NCBI GenBank assembly: GCA_951640195.1
Contig: OX621163.1
Span: forward strand, 1,178,001-1,242,000
Source: Porpolomopsis calyptriformis
Taxonomy: Eukaryota > Basidiomycota > Agaricomycetes > Agaricales > Hygrophoraceae
Direction of reading: 5' to 3'
Length of the DNA: 64,000 bases
Shown here: positions 13,397-33,392 of the stretch, in pieces
Layout of the letters: each line of letters begins with the position of its first letter
Position numbering within the stretch: the first letter of the stretch is position 1
The notes under the pieces: generated by a model
Database searches by the model: none
What the model was told of the DNA's origin: nothing
The model's input: only the letters and a program-made list of their open reading frames with translations
Made by a program: the position numbers and the translations under genes

Positions 13397-14827
13397 CTAT
13401 CGGAGGTTCAATATCTTGATGAAGTTCTCGAATTTCAGTCGTGCCAGGGGTTTTATGAAGATGTCCGCGATCATCTTGCCAGTTGGGACATAGATGACGG
13501 TTACCTCTCCAGCTTCCACAGTCTCGCGTACATAGTGGTACTTAATGTCAATGTGTTTGGTGCATGCATGAAAAGTGTTGTCTTTTGCTAGGGATTTCAC
13601 ACCTAGGTTGTTACAGAAGATTGGTGTTGGTGTTGTGATTGGTCCCAATAATTCTGTGAGGAAACTTCGAAGCCATATGGCTTCTTGTGCTGCATTCGAC
13701 AGCCCTATGTATTCCGCTTCAGTGCTAGATAGTGCGATGATTGGTTGTCATTTGGATGACCATGAGATGGGGCCGCCAGCGAAGAAAAAGATGTAACTGG
13801 AAACTGAGTGTCAGTTGCTTTGAGATGCAAAGTCCAAGTCCGTGTATCCTTCTAATCCAGTTGGTTTTCCGCCAAGGACCAGGCGTTGGTCCTTCACACC
13901 CTTGAGATGTCGCAGTACATGTTTGACTCCCTCCCAATGAGTTAGACCTGGGTTTTGCATGAATTGCAACAGTGTTCACACAGCGAATCTGAGCTGGGGG
14001 AATGACACTAGGTAGGTGTACATGATCTTTCTGATGGCACAGGCATATGGATATCGCGTCATGTCGAGCTGCTCCTTTGGTGTCTTGGGACATTGCTCAT
14101 GCGTGTACACGGCACCAGGGTCTATAGGCATAGATACTAGTCAACAATTGGACATTTTGAACTCTTGGAGTATGGATTCAACATATGCTTTCTGTGAGAG
14201 GGATATCGTTCATGCCTTCCAGTCTCGGATGAGCTCCATACCTAATAGCCAGTGAATCTCTCCAAGATCAGAGATCTTGAAGTACATCCTGAAGCCATCC
14301 TTGAGTTGTTTGATGGAGTGGAGATACCTTGCCGTTATCATCATATTGTCTACAGAGACTCCTACTATGTTCCGTCCAGTCGCATTTTTGAAACACAGAG
14401 TGGTCCGCGTTGGTGCGCTTGAAGCCGAGCACTTGGAATGTCTCACATAACTTGAGGTACTATTTCCTTCCAGCTTGTTTGAGTCTGTAGATGCCCTTTT
14501 GTAGCCGGCAGACCATTCCCTTCTGCACTTCCAAGAGGTAACCTGGCAGGGCTTTCATATATATTTCCTCGTCTAGTTCCACATTAAGGAAGGCACTCTT
14601 GATGTCAATTTGGTGGATTTCCCAGTCTTCTTGGGCTGCTAACGCTAAGATGATTTGTTCGGTTGTAAGTTTTATGCCAGATGCGAAGGTGTCAAAGTAG
14701 TAGACCTGGCTATAACCCTTGGCGACTAATCAGGCTCGAAACGTTGCGATATTCCCGGATGCATCTCGCTTGTGTTGGAATATGAATCTGGAGCCAATGA
14801 TATTGGCATCAGGAGGAGGGTGGACGA
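13397..14827 (-). pseudogene. Copia I RT and RNase H (C-terminal part)
   Basis: RVT_2-type reverse transcriptase resuming after element III with ANIIGSRFIFQHKRDASGN. The active-site segment reads VGVSVDNMMI where YVDD is expected, so a catalytic Asp is lost. The end carries the RNase H motif KHIDIKYHYVRE and stops at 13,397. Stops and frame changes interrupt it. TGTCGTA-type bases at the element III border restore the frame KTWKLVHPPP when the insertion is removed. Confidence 0.85.
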
Positions 14828-15435
14828 TGATACGTCTGCTTCGTGTATGAGAACCGAACACAGAACAAGGTGCGAGGACAACTATAAAGAGTCTCGACAC
14901 AGTCTATGATCGATGATCGTGGAAAGGAAGTCTTCGATCATTCGCGAACGAGATCGATTGGGGAATCGGAAGGATCGGGAAGTCGAAAGAGGAAGTCTTA
15001 GAAGATCTAAAGAGGATCTAGACTCGAGAGCGAGAGAGAAGCGAATATCTAACTTGTTTTATCACTAGCTACAACATACAGTATATATATCTTCTAGTAC
15101 AAGGATCCCTTTGAGTGTATATGATAAAAGGGGAGCCTCTCTAATGATCTAAGGGGAAAGTAGTGAATAGGAATGAAGGAATCAAATGAAAAGGGAGAAA
15201 TAGAAGAGATCAGATGCCTTTGAATAGTGTCTTCCCTTTGATATACAAACTTTCATTCACGTTCGGAAAGCTTCGATCGCGTTCGGAGCGTTCGATGATT
15301 CTCAAAGTCGTTCGGGACATTCGGGAGCTATCGGGAGTGTTCAGAGGGTTCGAGTTCGTATTCGAAGGACTTGATAGGCATCTAGTATTCGTATAGTTGA
15401 ATATACAGTGCTCAGGGGACGGAGGGGTCGTATCA
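14828..15435 (-). repeat. 3' LTR of element III (608 bp)
   Basis: Differs from the 5' LTR by a few substitutions and a 20-bp segment absent from the other copy, probably lost between short GTTCGGA repeats. The LTRs are therefore not identical and the insertion is older than element II. Confidence 0.92.
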
Positions 15436-23115: not shown

Positions 23116-23118
23116 AAA

Positions 23119-23706
23119 TGATACGTCTGCTTCGTGTATGAGAACCGAACACAGAACAAGGTGCGAGGACGACTATAAAGAGTCTCAACACAGTCTATGA
23201 TCGATGATCGTTGAAAGGAAGTCTTTGATCGTTCACGAACGAGATTGATCGGGGAATCGGAAGGATCGGGAAGTCGAAAGAGGAAGTCTTAGAAGATCTA
23301 AAGAGGATCTAGACTCGAGAGCGAGAGAGAAGCGAATATCTAACTTGTTTTATCACTAGCTACAACATACAGTATATATATCTTCTAGTACAAGGATCCC
23401 TTTGAGTGTATATGATAAAAGGGGAGCCTCTCTAATGATCTAAGGGGAAAGTAGTGAATAGGAATGAAGGAATCAAATGAAAAGGGAGAAATAGAAGAGA
23501 TCAGATGCCTTTGAATAGTGTCTTCCCTTTGATATACAAACTTTCATTCGCGTTCGGAGCGTTCGATGATTCTCGAAGTCGTTCGGGACATTCGGGAGCT
23601 ATCGGGAGTGTTCAGAGGGTTCGAGTTCGTATTCGAAGGACTTGATAGGCATCTAGTATTTGTATAGTTGAATATACGGTGCTCAGGGGATGGAGGGGTC
23701 GTATCA
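23119..23706 (-). repeat. 5' LTR of element III (588 bp)
   Basis: TGATACGTCT...CGTATCA, the partner of 14,828-15,435. Confidence 0.92.
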
Positions 23707-25904: not shown

Positions 25905-26274
25905 TGTTATGATTCGGTAGTCGAAGGGTTTTACTTCTCGCGTTGGAGGGGCTGATGAGGAAATAGAATTCGACTAAAGAGTGGGGGAGCTAACTAGGAA
26001 TCGAACTTAACCTACTGACTAGAAATCAGGCTTTATATACTAACTACCTGAATCGCCATGAGTCAGTCGTATGTACGATTACAAAGCGGAATCCGGAATG
26101 TGACTAGTGAAGAGTCACAAAAGGAATATCGGAAACGGAATGTGACTCGTGAAGAGTCGGAAGGAAGGTACATGTGATCAGTCTCTATGTATAGAATGGT
26201 AAAACGGAAGGATAGACGGAACAGAGACTAATCAAGTATGACTAAGAGAAAAAGGAAAAAAGATGTCCGTGACA
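25905..26274 (-). repeat. 3' LTR of element II (370 bp)
   Basis: TGTTATGATT...GTCCGTGACA, identical to 32,215-32,584. TGAGTCA at 26,059-26,065. To its right (26,275-26,310) lies a G-rich tract on the minus strand and a short hairpin GAATTTCG/CGAAATTC. Confidence 0.95.
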
Positions 26275-26354: not shown

Positions 26355-26933
26355 CTAGATTGAGTCCTTGTTGGAGGCGATGGTCGACAGGGAAATAATG
26401 TCGACCGGGGAAATATCGTCGTCATCGGGGATGGTGATGGGGTTCGACGACGAACCGGGGGGAACGATGAGTGGACCCGGGAAAACAGGGGGAACTGGAG
26501 AATCAAGATGGGGAAGTACCTTCGCAACTTCCTCGTACTTTGCCTCCCAGTATTTGGCCTGCTCTCGCCAGTATTCACTCCCTCTTCTGTTTCCGTCCAA
26601 ACTCATTCCTTGGTTGTACAATTCTTCGTTTAGTCTTGCAATCTCGTTCTTGTAGTAATCGATATCTTTCTGTAGTGACTCGATGATCTGCTCGGGCGGG
26701 ATGGGTGGAGCGACGATTTCCTCTGGCCATATGGGAAGGTCTCGATTTCGTGCGCGACGGTTGTGCTGCCAGAGTTGTCCGGCGAGCTCGGCTTCACCGT
26801 AAGCGGAGGAGGTGGAAGCGAGCGGAGGGGGAGCGCGACGAGGGGGTTGCCCTCCAGTGGACATGCGAGGAGCGCGGGGTGGACGACCACCAGTAGACTT
26901 GCGGGCAGTTTGATGCGAGCGTTCGGCGGGCAT
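26355..26933 (-). CDS. ORF3 of element II: histone H3-tail-like N-terminus plus coiled coil
   Basis: 192 aa, ATG at 26,933, 124 nt downstream of the pol stop and followed by the 3' LTR. Residues 8-16 are QTARKSTGG, identical to residues 5-13 of mature histone H3; residues 19-20 (PR) also match H3 16-17. Residues 23-28 repeat the motif as RMSTGG. A Pro/Ala linker follows, then residues about 80-135 form a charged heptad-like helix (SLQKDIDYYKNEIARLNEEL, then YWREQAKYWEAKYEEV), and an acidic tail with SSNPITIPDDDDISPVDI, which resembles a SUMO-interacting or acidic patch. No signal peptide or membrane helix. How it is translated (own RNA or re-initiation) is unknown. The H3 likeness is direct; a role in chromatin is inference. 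Confidence 0.85.
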   Translation of the reverse strand: MPAERSHQTARKSTGGRPPRAPRMSTGGQPPRRAPPPLASTSSAYGEAELAGQLWQHNRRARNRDLPIWPEEIVAPPIPPEQIIESLQKDIDYYKNEIARLNEELYNQGMSLDGNRRGSEYWREQAKYWEAKYEEVAKVLPHLDSPVPPVFPGPLIVPPGSSSNPITIPDDDDISPVDIISLSTIASNKDSI

Positions 26934-27057: not shown

Positions 27058-30000
27058 TTAGGTCGCCGTTTGAATTGATTGTTCGTATTCTAGAATTCGT
27101 TCTTTCGCATGGAGGAGGTTCTTCTTCGGTTCCCAGGTTGCTTCTTCAATGGGATAGCCGACCCATTTGACCAAATACGTACGACGTCGGGTGGACCCGT
27201 GGTGTTGGAGAATTTGTTCGACCTCATATTCTTCTTTCTCTTGAATGACATCCGGAGGTGGACGGAGATTATCATCTACTTCCTCCGGGTGGAGATCGGA
27301 GTTAATGTTAGCGGGTCTCAGGAGTGATACGTGAAAGACGTCGTGTATTTTCCATGATAAGGGGAGGGCCAGGCGATAAGAGACTTTTCCGATTTTCTCT
27401 AGAACTTTGAACGGTCCAGTGCGTTGGACATCAAGTTTGAGGGTTGGACGACCTGTTTTTAAGTTACGAGTATCAAGATAAACAAATTGACCTATTTGGA
27501 GTTGGGTATCTTTCCGTTTACGATCTGCGAAGCGTTTCATGGTTTCGGCCGCTGTTTCTAGAGCTTTTGTGGCTTCTTCACGGGCTTCTGTGAGATGATC
27601 GTGGAAGGTATCTGCTGCGGGGTTGGAAGTAGGGGCCGCAGGGACAGATGGGACGAAGGGATGTTGGCCAGTATCAAGGTAAAAGGGAGTGTGTTTCGTC
27701 GAGGAGTGCTGTCGGTTATTGTAAGCGAATTCAGCTGGGGATAGCCAGTTGGACCAATCGTCTTGCATAAAGTTTGTATATAAACGAAGGTATTGTTCGA
27801 GTTCTTGATTGGTGCGTTCCGTTTGACCATCAGTTTGGGGATGATAAGCGGTGGATAGACCGGAGATGATTCCCAAATGAATGTTGAGAGCTTTCGCAAA
27901 TTTGGAAGCAAACTGAGTTCCTCGATCGGTTATGATCTTCTTTGGCCAGCCGTGGTGTTTCCATACATTGTCCCTGAAGAGTTTTGCGACTCCTTCTGCA
28001 GAAATATTTGATGTTGTCGGAACAAAGTGAGCGCGTTTGGTAAAGCGGTCGACAACGACTAAGACAGCATCGTAGCCAGATGATTGGGGGAGTTCCACGA
28101 TTAGATCGGCGGTGATTTCTTCCCAAGGTCGAGACGAAGGGGGAATGGGTTCCAGGAGACCTGCAGGCTTCGAAGGATAGAGCTTGACTTGTTGGCAGGT
28201 CGGACAGGATGATACGAATACACGGATATCAGGGGCAGCACTACTCCAGGTGTAGTTCCGCAACACAAGCTCACGTGTCTTCTCGATTCCGGGATGGCCT
28301 CCATGGGGTAGGGAGTGGGTCAATCGAATTATCTCTGTGCGTAGCAATACGTCTGTTGGCACAACAATACGATCTCCTGCATCTCTCACAATTCCGTCAG
28401 TGAAGGAGTAGCCGGAAGAGGGATCGGATAACTTGATGCGAATGTCCTCTGGGATTTCGTTGAAGTCGGGGAAGCGAAGTCTTGACATAAAGGAAGGTTC
28501 GGACATGGAAATGATAGCATTAATGAAACGTTCGGGGGGGAGGAGGGCTTGGCCTTCTAGTTCTTCTTTTTCTGTATGACGGTGGTCGGGTCGGCGGGAG
28601 AGTCCATCGGCTTTGTTTTTGACTCCAGGGGAATACTCGATTTTGAAGTCGAATCTACCTAGGAATTCCATCCAACGTGCTTGTCGTCTGGAGAGGGATC
28701 TGTTTTGCATAAAATACTTGAGCGCTAAATTGTCCGTCTTTATCAACACAGTATCCCTTGCGCCCTCTAAAAGATAACGCCAATACTTGAGGGAAGTGAC
28801 GATTGCAAGCATCTCCAGATCATGGGTAGGATAGTTGTACTCGGCAGGGAGTAGAGACTTTGAGAAAAAGCCAACGGGGTGCCAACCGTTGTCGTGTTTC
28901 TGAGACAAGACTGCACCAATACCGAAATCTGAGGCATCAGTCTCCAAGAGGTAAGGAAGGTCTGGCCGCGGGGTAAGAAGGACAGGGGCTGTAGTGACGA
29001 GATGTTTGAGTTGTTCAAAGGCTTTTTGACACAAGGGAGACCAATCCCAAGGTTGGTCTTTCCGCAAAAGGCCACAGAGGGGACGAACGACTGAGGAGAA
29101 ACTTTTGATGTAACGACGCCAGAAGTTGGTGGTGCCAAGGAAGGATTGGAGGTCTCGCAGCTTTTGGGGTGTCGGCCAATTGATGATGGCGTCTACCTTT
29201 TTTGGATTGATAGCGAGTTGACCTTTACTGATGATTGTACCAAGGTATGTAACAGAGGTCTTCTCCATTTGGCATTTGACGGGTTTGGCGGATAGTTGAT
29301 TCTTCTCCATGAGTTTAAGGGTTTCGTCAGTCCAGTGGCGGATTTCTTCGGGGGTGTCGCCCATAATGAGAATGTCGTCAATATAAATGTGGACACAGCC
29401 AGAGTCCAGAACGGTTTTAAAGAGAACGTCTATCATTCGTTGGAAAGATGCTGGGGAGTTCCGTAGTCCAAAGAACATAACGGTCGGCTCGAAGAGTCCT
29501 CGATTGGTGATGAAAGCTGCTTTCCATTCGTCACCTTCCTTGAGTCGTATGTTGTTAAATCCCCATCGAATATCGATGACTGTAAAGAGTGAAGCAGTAG
29601 CAAGCTTCGGTACTTGGAGGATTTCCGATAGAAGGGGAAGGGGGTAACGATCAGGAATGGTTTTTGAGTTGATGTAGCGATAGTCCTGGATGGGACGTAG
29701 ACCAGCACTGAGACCTTTAGCATTGATCTCTTCAGCTTTTTTTGCAAAGAAGAAGGGAGCAGCTTGCGGTGATTTCGATGGACGTATCCGACCTGTTCTG
29801 AGATTTTCGTCAATAAACTTATTAAGTTCTACCTGTTCATAGGGGGAAAGGGGATAGAGTTTTCCGACTTGAAACTTGGTGTTCGGGTAGAGGTTGATCG
29901 CATGATCAAAAGGACGTCGAGGAGGAAGCTTGTCGAATTCTGCGGTATGAAAAACACGCCAGAAATTGTGATAACGACTGGGAATAAAGGATTTGATATC

Positions 30001-30678
30001 CTCCTCGATGGAAACTGGTCGGGAGTGGTCAACTCTGACCAAATGGATAAAGGAGTCATGTTTCAGACTCGAATCGAAGACGTAGAGTTCTTCCTGTGGG
30101 GGCAACACTCCGACTCGCATACTACTGAACAGCGTGTCACCAGACGCAAAGGTTAAGGTGCCTTTTGTCCAATTGATGGTGGGGTTGTGTCGCAAGAGCC
30201 ATGGGAAGCCGAGGATGACCTGTTGCTTTTTTCCTAAGTTGGTGACCTCCAACCGGATTCGTTCTCGAAAGGATAGATCTGGTGCCTCAATAAACAGGTC
30301 TGTATCGTGCGTGATGGGACCTCCTCGGTTCTCGGAACCATCAGCGTTTCGTACCGGTATAACCTCATCCAACAGATAGGTCGATATCTCCATTTGACGA
30401 ACGAATGCTTCGTCAATAAAATTCCCTGAGGCGCCAGAGTCAATGAGTGCTATGATAGCCACTCGTCGAAGATTGTCGGCACTCGTGATCCAAAGATAGA
30501 ATTCGAGAGCGCCTTTGCCCTGTTCAAGTGTGCCAAGAAAACGAAAACTTTTCATAGATGGTGGTACACATACATGGGACACAGCCAAAGTGCTCGGGCT
30601 TTTAGCACTTAGCCAGACTAAAAATCCTTTTGCTCTTTTAACGCTCGAGCTAGCGCAGCCCGTCTCTCCTTGTTCCAA
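27058..30678 (-). CDS. Pol of element II: protease, RT, RNase H, integrase, chromodomain
   Basis: About 1,200 aa, open throughout and expressed by -1 frameshift from gag (the printed start lies in the overlap; no ATG is needed). Retropepsin IALIDSGASGNFIDEAF near residue 80; RT with VIDIRWGFNNIR, FGLRNSPASFQRM and YIDDILIMGD; RNase H LETDASDFGIGAVL; integrase zinc finger H..HGGHPGIEK...CPTCQQ; core DRFTKRAHF, TDRGTQFASKF and YHPQTDGQTERTNQELE. The C-terminal chromodomain EYEVEQILQ...YLVKWVGYPIEEATWEP keeps the Tyr, Trp and Tyr of the aromatic cage that binds methyl-lysine. Known chromoviruses use it to target heterochromatin. Confidence 0.96.
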   Translation of the reverse strand: MEQGETGCASSSVKRAKGFLVWLSAKSPSTLAVSHVCVPPSMKSFRFLGTLEQGKGALEFYLWITSADNLRRVAIIALIDSGASGNFIDEAFVRQMEISTYLLDEVIPVRNADGSENRGGPITHDTDLFIEAPDLSFRERIRLEVTNLGKKQQVILGFPWLLRHNPTINWTKGTLTFASGDTLFSSMRVGVLPPQEELYVFDSSLKHDSFIHLVRVDHSRPVSIEEDIKSFIPSRYHNFWRVFHTAEFDKLPPRRPFDHAINLYPNTKFQVGKLYPLSPYEQVELNKFIDENLRTGRIRPSKSPQAAPFFFAKKAEEINAKGLSAGLRPIQDYRYINSKTIPDRYPLPLLSEILQVPKLATASLFTVIDIRWGFNNIRLKEGDEWKAAFITNRGLFEPTVMFFGLRNSPASFQRMIDVLFKTVLDSGCVHIYIDDILIMGDTPEEIRHWTDETLKLMEKNQLSAKPVKCQMEKTSVTYLGTIISKGQLAINPKKVDAIINWPTPQKLRDLQSFLGTTNFWRRYIKSFSSVVRPLCGLLRKDQPWDWSPLCQKAFEQLKHLVTTAPVLLTPRPDLPYLLETDASDFGIGAVLSQKHDNGWHPVGFFSKSLLPAEYNYPTHDLEMLAIVTSLKYWRYLLEGARDTVLIKTDNLALKYFMQNRSLSRRQARWMEFLGRFDFKIEYSPGVKNKADGLSRRPDHRHTEKEELEGQALLPPERFINAIISMSEPSFMSRLRFPDFNEIPEDIRIKLSDPSSGYSFTDGIVRDAGDRIVVPTDVLLRTEIIRLTHSLPHGGHPGIEKTRELVLRNYTWSSAAPDIRVFVSSCPTCQQVKLYPSKPAGLLEPIPPSSRPWEEITADLIVELPQSSGYDAVLVVVDRFTKRAHFVPTTSNISAEGVAKLFRDNVWKHHGWPKKIITDRGTQFASKFAKALNIHLGIISGLSTAYHPQTDGQTERTNQELEQYLRLYTNFMQDDWSNWLSPAEFAYNNRQHSSTKHTPFYLDTGQHPFVPSVPAAPTSNPAADTFHDHLTEAREEATKALETAAETMKRFADRKRKDTQLQIGQFVYLDTRNLKTGRPTLKLDVQRTGPFKVLEKIGKVSYRLALPLSWKIHDVFHVSLLRPANINSDLHPEEVDDNLRPPPDVIQEKEEYEVEQILQHHGSTRRRTYLVKWVGYPIEEATWEPKKNLLHAKERILEYEQSIQTAT

Positions 30679-32039
30679 TTTGCGATTCCCATATCCTTCA
30701 AGTCGTCCTTTGCCATCCTTTTTTCCTTTTCGTCGTCCTCTGGTACCTCCTCTATCTGCGCTTCCAATTCTTCTGTATCGACCCGATTGATCGTTCGGAC
30801 ATTCCGTCCTTTGCCTCGACCGCGATTTCCTCCTTTTCCTCGAGTAGAGTTTGAGGATTCTTGACGTGCCGGAACGTCTTCAGCACGTGGACTTCGACAT
30901 TCGTTGGCATAGTGTCCCTTTTTGCCACAATTGTAGCAAGTGATGGAGGAGTTGTCTCGTTTCGCTGTCTTGAGAGAGGCTTCTCTCGATTCTTGTTTAA
31001 TCGGGGATGAAGTGGTGGTGGTGATGGAGCGGGAAGGGTTTCCTCGTGGACTCGATTTGGTTTCAGACTTCTTTCCTTTTTGATCTCGACTTGACCACAA
31101 TGCTTGTTCGGCTCGTTGTTCCTGGTACTGTTCTTCGAACTGGGCCGCTTTTGTCGTCCAGTCCAGTAAAGTCGACGGCATGTTGTCCATCGAGTAGATC
31201 CGCGTTCGGATCGGCTGGGGGAGTCCGGCTTTGTAAAACCGAAGTAGAGCAGTCTCGTTGTACTCAGTTCTTGCTGCGTGTTGCATGAACCGAAGGTTGT
31301 AGTCTTCTATCGTTCCTGTCATCTTCACTTTCTCTAGCTCGATCCGCGCCTTCGCCGCTGGGTTGATCCTTCCGAAAGCTTCCCTGAAATCGTCTAAAAA
31401 TGTTGCATAGTCCCATACGAAATTCCTCGTCCTGTCAACTCCTTCTGTGAACAGTCGTCCCCAGGCCCGTGGATTGCCGTCACCGAGGTAGGAGAGCATA
31501 TAGATGATCTTCTGTTTATCATTGTAGTCTTTGACCACAAAGTTGAGTCGACATTGATGAATGAAGTCTTCAAGCTTCTCGGAGGTCCCATCATACTCGG
31601 TTGGATCGGCGATTTTGATTTTGGTGGGGGCTGGAAGTGTGGGGGGAGCAGTCGTCTGGGTGGGTAGTTGAGTGGGAAAGGTTGGTTGGGATGGAGGTTG
31701 GACGGATTGGGTTCTTCTTGTGGGATAAACGAAAGGATTCGAGGGGGAAAGTCCAGGTCCCCGAAGCACAGATCGTCGTCGTGGGGGAGGGGTGGCTGGT
31801 TCAGATTCTTCGCGTCGACTTTCTTTGAGAGCTTTCAGCTCCTTTCGGAGCTCTTCATTGACGTCGACTTCGCTGTAGTACCAACCGCGGAACTGGTCAA
31901 TTTGTGCTCTTAAATCTCTGAGCTCTTGTTCCATGTTAAATGGGACGACGTCTTCTTCTTCTTCTTGAATGGTAGGGGGGATGTTACTGGGTCCTGGTGC
32001 GGGAACGGATTGATCGGCTTCGTACTCTTGTTGAGACAT
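30618..32039 (-). CDS. Gag of element II
   Basis: 473 aa from ATG 32,039 to TAG 30,618-30,620. An acidic start (MSQQEYEADQ) and coiled coil (ELRDLRAQIDQF...NEELRKELKAL) lead into a Pro/Thr linker, a retrotransposon gag core (IADPTEYDGTSEKLEDFIHQC, FLDDFREAFGRINP) and a CCHC knuckle CYNCGKKGHYANEC. A basic RG-rich tail and a conserved end (MAKDDLKDMGIANWNKERR) are shared with element I. Forms the virus-like particle shell and binds RNA by family analogy. Confidence 0.94.
   Translation of the reverse strand: MSQQEYEADQSVPAPGPSNIPPTIQEEEEDVVPFNMEQELRDLRAQIDQFRGWYYSEVDVNEELRKELKALKESRREESEPATPPPRRRSVLRGPGLSPSNPFVYPTRRTQSVQPPSQPTFPTQLPTQTTAPPTLPAPTKIKIADPTEYDGTSEKLEDFIHQCRLNFVVKDYNDKQKIIYMLSYLGDGNPRAWGRLFTEGVDRTRNFVWDYATFLDDFREAFGRINPAAKARIELEKVKMTGTIEDYNLRFMQHAARTEYNETALLRFYKAGLPQPIRTRIYSMDNMPSTLLDWTTKAAQFEEQYQEQRAEQALWSSRDQKGKKSETKSSPRGNPSRSITTTTSSPIKQESREASLKTAKRDNSSITCYNCGKKGHYANECRSPRAEDVPARQESSNSTRGKGGNRGRGKGRNVRTINRVDTEELEAQIEEVPEDDEKEKRMAKDDLKDMGIANWNKERRAALARALKEQKDF
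30621..30627 (-). promoter_or_regulatory. -1 frameshift heptamer GGATTTT (element II)
   Basis: In the gag frame G GAT TTT TAG. Pol is in the -1 frame and open across it. Same place as GGGTTTT in element I. Confidence 0.72.
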
Positions 32040-32214: not shown

Positions 32215-32584
32215 TGTTATGATTCGGTAGTCGAAGGGTTTTACTTCTCGCGTTGGAGGGGCTGATGAGGAAATAGAATTCGACTAAAGAGTGGGGGAGC
32301 TAACTAGGAATCGAACTTAACCTACTGACTAGAAATCAGGCTTTATATACTAACTACCTGAATCGCCATGAGTCAGTCGTATGTACGATTACAAAGCGGA
32401 ATCCGGAATGTGACTAGTGAAGAGTCACAAAAGGAATATCGGAAACGGAATGTGACTCGTGAAGAGTCGGAAGGAAGGTACATGTGATCAGTCTCTATGT
32501 ATAGAATGGTAAAACGGAAGGATAGACGGAACAGAGACTAATCAAGTATGACTAAGAGAAAAAGGAAAAAAGATGTCCGTGACA
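32215..32584 (-). repeat. 5' LTR of element II with promoter
   Basis: Minus-strand TATA (GTATATAAAG, 32,341-32,350) lies about 23 nt before AAGTTCGATTC (32,318 down to 32,308), the expected transcript start. One TGAGTCA site at 32,369-32,375. Confidence 0.93.
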
Positions 32585-33279: not shown

Positions 33280-33392
33280 ATTCCCAGAACTTGGAAGCTC
33301 CACCCTGATGTCACTGACACATCTTAACCTCCCCCAGATTTAATTGAGAATGAAGAAGAATATGAGGTCGAATCTATTCTACAACACTCCAG
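33280..33392 (+). pseudogene. Gypsy remnant: chromodomain side
   Basis: Continues 12,165-13,195 after copia I: IPRTWKLHPDVTDTS then PPDLIENEEEYEVESILQHS. Homology to element I ends near 33,392, so the remnant is truncated just upstream of RRN3. Confidence 0.85.

Follow-up and report, generated by a model that had tools for sequence, protein, structure and literature searches.

Why a retrotransposon should encode a protein that begins like the tail of histone H3 is the question raised by this locus. The window, meaning the whole stretch of 64,000 nucleotides from Porpolomopsis calyptriformis that was analysed, carries on its minus strand an LTR element with an extra reading frame, ORF3. Its features, in window positions, are as follows.

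25905..26274, minus strand: 3' LTR, 370 bp, TGTCAC...ATAACA, identical to the 5' LTR
26355..26933, minus strand: ORF3, accessory protein between pol and the 3' LTR, 192 aa, open frame
26505..26696, minus strand: predicted helical region, ORF3 residues 80-143, possibly a coiled coil (AlphaFold2, low confidence)
26838..26873, minus strand: imperfect second repeat APRMSTGGQPPR, ORF3 residues 21-32, with methionine at the lysine place
26886..26912, minus strand: QTARKSTGG codons, ORF3 residues 8-16 (K12 codon 26900-26898)
27058..30678, minus strand: pol, 1206 aa (protease, RT, RNase H, integrase, Chromo), open frame, Pfam
27079..27228, minus strand: C-terminal chromodomain of the integrase with a Y-W-Y cage (Pfam Chromo, E 6.9e-13)
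30618..32039, minus strand: gag, 473 aa (Ty3_capsid, zf-CCHC knuckle), open frame, Pfam
32215..32584, minus strand: 5' LTR, 370 bp, identical to the 3' LTR

The element and the H3-like tail of ORF3

The element that bears ORF3 is a Ty3/gypsy chromovirus, as seen from its pol with an integrase and C-terminal chromodomain, its LTRs and its target duplication, in which 5 bp (CTCAC) flank both LTRs. The pol frame overlaps gag in the -1 frame (30618-30678), and a frameshift would therefore be needed. The first-pass annotation had described all frames of the element as intact and its LTRs as identical; the frames are indeed open and the LTRs match over 370 bp. Elsewhere in the window, direct repeats at 14827-15435 and 23118-23706 (8.3 kb apart, 95-97% identical) lie around minus-strand retroelement-like frames, and 33328-33387 on the plus strand is 77% like the chromodomain-coding DNA of the element, apparently a fragment of a related one.

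The N-terminus of ORF3 is MPAERSHQTARKSTGGRPPR, and in a longer extract the protein reads MPAERSHQTARKSTGGRPPRAPRMSTGGQPPR... Residues 8-16, QTARKSTGG, are identical to H3 residues 5-13, while R5 aligns with H3 R2 and P19-R20 align with H3 P16-R17. Over H3 residues 2-17, the two sequences are the same at R2, Q5 to G13, P16 and R17 and differ at T3 (S in ORF3), K4 (H), K14 (R) and A15 (P). The nine-residue identity and the PR match claimed earlier are thus borne out by the translation. A second, imperfect repeat follows, PRMSTGGQPPR compared to ARKSTGGRPPR in the first, and its M24 might double as an internal start codon.

ORF3 is not a member of the H3 family, as the histone fold is absent, and the protein matches no Pfam family at E 0.001. 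When the whole of ORF3 was compared with PDB sequences by phmmer, H3-type chains ranked first and made up all but one of the best 60 of 127 matches. The E-values are poor, 0.078 for a chain labelled Cse4 and from 0.13 for H3 peptides, because the matching stretch is short. A single-sequence AlphaFold2 model, weak at a mean pLDDT of 59.2, places helices at residues 45-60, 80-109 and 116-143 and leaves the tail, which is also basic, without secondary structure. Downstream of the pol stop, the first ATG is that of ORF3, at a distance of 124 nt and behind a pyrimidine-rich stretch. From such a position, ORF3 might be translated by reinitiation or from a spliced RNA, or be transcribed from an internal promoter; its expression is putative.

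Conservation of the tail among genomic copies

A degenerate DNA pattern for QTARKSTGG was found in 21 stretches of bacterial and archaeal assemblies totalling 257 Gb, comprising 7 contaminating H3 genes, 3 other exact matches, 10 stretches with the serine replaced and 1 with a stop. Three exact non-H3 matches in 257 Gb indicate that about 4e-4 would be expected per 33.5 Mb. In the 33.5 Mb genome from which the window comes, the ARKSTGG-coding pattern occurs in 70 places, against 2 for the reversed-pattern control, and of the 70, 67 fall in ORF3 copies and the other three in H3 genes. Where its DNA is continuous, the K9 tail motif is therefore confined in this genome to H3 genes and the element family, a DNA pattern search being blind to motifs with an intron inside. 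Among viral contigs, no match was found for ORF3 or the integrase, and three pattern matches there read other than QTARKSTGG.

The genome contains 131 matches to ORF3 at 30-100% identity, the weakest of which belong to a second family. The comparison covered 101 ORF3-family loci including that of the window (L009-L109), two fragments at G000:C4:397113-397713 being omitted. Near-full copies, with at least 180 of 192 codons aligned, account for 96 of the 101, and 62 of these 96 are stop-free (61 align in one piece, 59 are distinct). QTARKSTGG is exact in 51 of the 62 stop-free copies and K12 is kept in all 62. The 11 exceptions consist of R11 to H in 6 and R11 to C in 1 (all 7 of CpG type), G15 to S in 3 and G16 to S in 1. 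Even among the 34 near-full copies with stops, 16 have the exact motif and 32 keep the lysine. It had been recognised at the outset that the motif might prove to be a random private sequence; across roughly 100 copies of the same genome, this is not so.

The codons beneath the motif vary silently. K12 is AAG in 46 copies and AAA in 16, S13 is TCT, TCA or TCC in 37, 17 and 8, and ACT/ACC and GCT/GCC alternatives are also seen. The pairs L009-L082, L009-L029 and L009-L034, with ORF3 DNA up to 22% apart, show synonymous but no amino-acid change in the motif. Relative to the window copy, and counted in 61 related copies of one genome so that the cells are not independent, synonymous cells make up 112 of the 549 in the block and 2149 of the 11041 outside it, CpG-transition-type replacements 7 of 549 and 557 of 11041, and non-CpG replacements 4 of 549 and 662 of 11041. 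The motif shows synonymous change as often as the rest of ORF3.

Rates were also calculated for 41 representatives of the stop-free copies, at least 3% apart. The block has a pN/pS of 0.06, or 0.02 without CpG transitions, compared to 0.22 and 0.17 outside residues 8-20, and its pS is ordinary (0.238 vs 0.224 outside residues 8-20). Of 182 nine-codon windows ranked by non-CpG pN, the one over residues 8-16 comes lowest. By a cruder measure, the number of distinct non-CpG replacement residues, 33 of the 182 windows are as low as the motif. Other stretches of ORF3 are therefore tight too, and a view of the block as uniquely conserved is weakened. Judged on the copies of this one genome, the motif is shown to be maintained by purifying selection.

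Repeat 2 (residues 21-36) is looser, with a pN/pS of 0.65, or 0.38 without CpG transitions; M24 is present in 62 of 62 stop-free copies, while R23 is kept in 30 and is H in 32. Among 61 copies, arginine is lost from R20 in 13, R23 in 32 and R32 in 20, all by CpG-type change, and from R11 in 7. The position equivalent to K14 holds R in 53 of 62 copies and C or H in the remainder, and K12 is the only lysine within residues 1-85 in 51 of 62. The copies L040-L109 often differ from the window copy by CpG transitions that turn Arg into Cys or His, a pattern that suggests methylation of CpG sites or a RIP-like process in the host. DNA-methyltransferase matches are present in the host genome.

The second family carries an ORF of 173 residues that is related to ORF3 in its helical part, with about 33% identity and matches in both directions at E near 1e-6 to 1e-5. 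It has 19 near-full matches at 82-100% identity and a few weaker ones. The K9 motif and tail are absent from the members read, in which the ORF starts MST, and at the one locus examined, the integrase end ahead of the ORF is without a chromodomain. With only two families, this is a hint that the tail accompanies the chromodomain.

Five loci of the most diverged type (L082, L083, L084, L087 and L088) have the tail, with QTARKSTGG in four and S at G15 in one. The ORF3 DNA of L082 is 22% from the window copy, and residues 8-20 show 0 replacements and 5 synonymous changes. The one locus of this type that was inspected, L082 (with L146, L110 and L147, at G000:C1:520634-524500), is composite: a K9-motif ORF3 lies behind a decayed, frame-shifted pol end and is followed by a truncated LTR (first 97 bases matched), a chromodomain-less integrase end and a second ORF3-like ORF. 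This ORF pair, or parts of the arrangement, recurs at several other loci. The L082 type was dropped as an independent active subfamily, given this composite locus, and the divergence of this most diverged stop-free lineage may therefore partly not reflect an active element.

As to the origin of the tail, which is separate from its function, capture of host H3 exon sequence is a tentative possibility. In the H3 gene L119 (G000:C2:3412750-3413350), a 25-nt exon appears by eye to encode Q5 to G13, the very block shared with ORF3; its introns lie after K4 and within codon 13, and the codon-13 intron is found in all three H3 genes. The window copy has 6 of 8 codons in common with H3a (P 0.016 if H3a is the sole gene considered); a codon variant present in 6 copies has 7 of 8 in common with H3b. 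However, against the best of three H3 genes the probability of 6 or more is 0.076 for one sequence, 16 codon variants were examined, and different variants are nearest to different H3 genes. Codon matches between the ORF3 block and H3 genes are thus suggestive at most, and capture and convergence both remain viable.

Candidate writers and readers, and competing explanations

According to the available part of PMC3248561, the activity of the Neurospora K9 methyltransferase DIM-5 in vitro is abolished by K9L, R8A and G12P, cut greatly by S10A and T11A and reduced slightly by G13M in most assays, while K4L, A7M, K14R, A15M and P16A have no significant effect. ORF3 retains all residues that DIM-5 needs by this account, R8 to G12. 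It departs from H3 at positions whose tested substitutions were tolerated there, apart from T3, which lies outside the test, and the substitutions tested at K4 and A15 differ from the letters of ORF3. A fit of the ORF3 tail to the DIM-5 substrate rules published in PMC3248561, as far as that text is available, is supported by comparison of the residues. A six-frame search of the host genome yielded a single Pre-SET match, and the gene that holds it also has a SET segment nearby. The solved structure nearest to the Pre-SET piece is Clr4 (E 2.2e-4), and the gene is a putative Clr4-like methyltransferase and a candidate writer.

On the reader side, the earlier statement that Pol ends in a chromodomain with an intact Tyr-Trp-Tyr cage agrees with the residues present: Y, W, Y and the following E are all found in the window copy. 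Chromodomain matches occur at 89 loci, 17 of them with a stop. The alignment extends as far as the four cage residues in 29-30 loci, that of the window among them, and all of these keep the residues; in the 59-60 loci left uncounted, it stops before the cage. Among 52 PDB sequences, the best matches are Oxpecker, CDYL and HP1, followed by CDYL2, Rhino, SUV39H1, MPP8 and others, which are proteins that read H3K9me. A chromo-shadow (HP1) search of the host genome gave no match, and its control likewise gave no signal. Insertions of the family are clustered, with 43% of 101 positions less than 50 kb from another, compared to 26% expected (1 of 1000 simulations as high). Clustering was dropped as a sign of targeting, since any element excluded from genes would cluster.

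The explanation preferred here, to which an even chance is given, is that ORF3 is a chromovirus accessory protein displaying a selected H3K9 mimic, methylated by the host at K12 and offered to chromodomains, that of the integrase first. A flexible N-terminal tail would stand ahead of a helical, perhaps oligomerising body, with the tail displayed in several copies, and a host K9 enzyme would methylate K12. Methylated ORF3 would then offer H3K9me-like tails to chromodomains, and the element's own integrase would be the first-choice ligand because the tail accompanies the chromodomain. This contact may hold the integrase in the particle or bridge it to methylated chromatin, and host chromodomain proteins may possibly be bound by the tail too. 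Counting against the explanation, D62, one of the residues through which HP1 contacts H3, is a leucine in the chromodomain of the element. The first-pass annotation had proposed that the lysine might be methylated and act as a decoy or a tether. Copy conservation and the fit to the DIM-5 rules strengthen the part of this proposal that sees a kept H3K9-tail mimic rather than a private accident, and on the preferred view the host probably methylates K12, which chromodomains would then recognise. If the explanation is true, one and the same LTR retrotransposon would code for a domain that reads the silencing mark, in its integrase, and for a protein that imitates the tail bearing this mark, and it would give direct access to the way in which chromoviruses locate heterochromatin or escape it.

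The main rival to the integrase-ligand reading, though a rather unlikely one, is a decoy for host silencing, in which abundant ORF3 would compete with H3 for the K9 methyltransferase and, once methylated, tie up HP1 or further proteins with chromodomains, allowing the element to evade silencing. The same conservation data apply to it. HP1-type chromodomains hold H3 residues 5-10, and conservation of the writer footprint as far as G12-G13, beyond those residues, favours a decoy, as do the R at the K14 place in 53 of 62 copies and the frequency of CpG-type replacements (557 of 11041 outside the motif), which is expected if the host methylates the family. However, the level of ORF3 would have to rival that of H3, and the absence of the tail from the ORF of the second family would be left unexplained, a point that rests on two families.

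It is unlikely that the tail is a basic segment for H3-importing karyopherins or for RNA or DNA, with its K9 likeness incidental. Retroelements need nuclear entry, and the tail is basic and unstructured in the model; yet what is kept is the K9 block and not the H3 lysines 4, 14 and 18. Moreover, R11 is lost from fewer copies than the arginines beyond the block (7 vs 13 for R20, 32 for R23 and 20 for R32, of 61), and K12 is never R, being K in 62 of 62.

Still less probable is a likeness born of chance or duplication and kept for another purpose, in which tandem STGG repeats near the ORF start gave rise to RKSTGG by one ATG-to-AAG change. The resemblance of PRMSTGGQPPR in repeat 2 to ARKSTGGRPPR, the MST start of the second family's ORF and the unexceptional number of distinct replacement residues in the block (33 of 182 windows) are all in keeping with it, but the chance rate of the nine residues is about 4e-4 per genome of such size, and the replacement rate is lowest exactly over the K9 block.

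A two-headed ORF3, in which ARKSTGG is substrate and chromodomain ligand and RMSTGG holds the K9 methyltransferase as H3K9M does, would mean a retrotransposon carrying an oncohistone-like trap beside a lure for its own integrase, but it is very improbable. The idea of a trap is weakened by the loose constraint on repeat 2 and by its R-M-S context, which is not conserved, R23 being kept in 30 of 62 copies.

Comparison with known systems

No relatives of ORF3 were found at E <= 0.1 among 5.8 billion proteins, with ORF3 and a four-sequence alignment as queries. The same collection holds 4182 pol relatives at E <= 0.001; the best 120 of them have 37-67% identity over pol residues 270-700, and Lyophyllum, Amanita, Psilocybe and Dentipellis are among the matches listed. 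In the copies compared, ORF3 has changed more quickly than pol, as in L029, which is 95.6% identical to the window copy at the pol end and 90% in ORF3. The database negative is therefore no proof of absence.

In gag, pol with chromodomain, LTRs and 5-bp target duplication, the element is like the fungal chromoviruses (Ty3/gypsy, Metaviridae), and it differs from them in having an ORF3 with an H3K9-like tail. The available text of PMC2864245 states that most of the full-length elements had one or two ORFs, with an additional function-unassigned ORF in a figure legend, and that chromovirus chromodomains steer integration to heterochromatin via histone modifications. LTR elements of bdelloid rotifers also have an ORF beside gag and pol; their ORF3 products are enzymes or envelope-like proteins, and the abstract of PMC5408684 is without mention of a histone mimic. 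The inhibitory H3K9M histone, as described in the accessible part of PMC5030085, can be likened to the R-M-S-T-G-G of repeat 2 in the window copy; unlike that histone, repeat 2 is weakly constrained, with R23 replaced by H in 32 of 62 copies.

Among the papers listed by a literature search, none showed a histone mimic in a retrotransposon. Mimicry of H3 is found in an RNA virus, where influenza NS1 imitates the start of H3 at its C-terminus; NS1 is thus, like ORF3, a parasite protein imitating the H3 tail. LIG1 is one of the host proteins that mimic H3K9. Others are G9a/GLP and ATF7IP, whose H3K9-like motif is a substrate of K9 enzymes and a ligand of HP1, the MPP8 chromodomain or UHRF1 according to the available part of PMC9768651. 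They share an H3K9-like motif with ORF3 but are host proteins, whereas ORF3 has a nine-residue exact match and belongs to a retrotransposon. ORF3 is accordingly classed as histone mimicry, known in host proteins and viruses, in a new setting.
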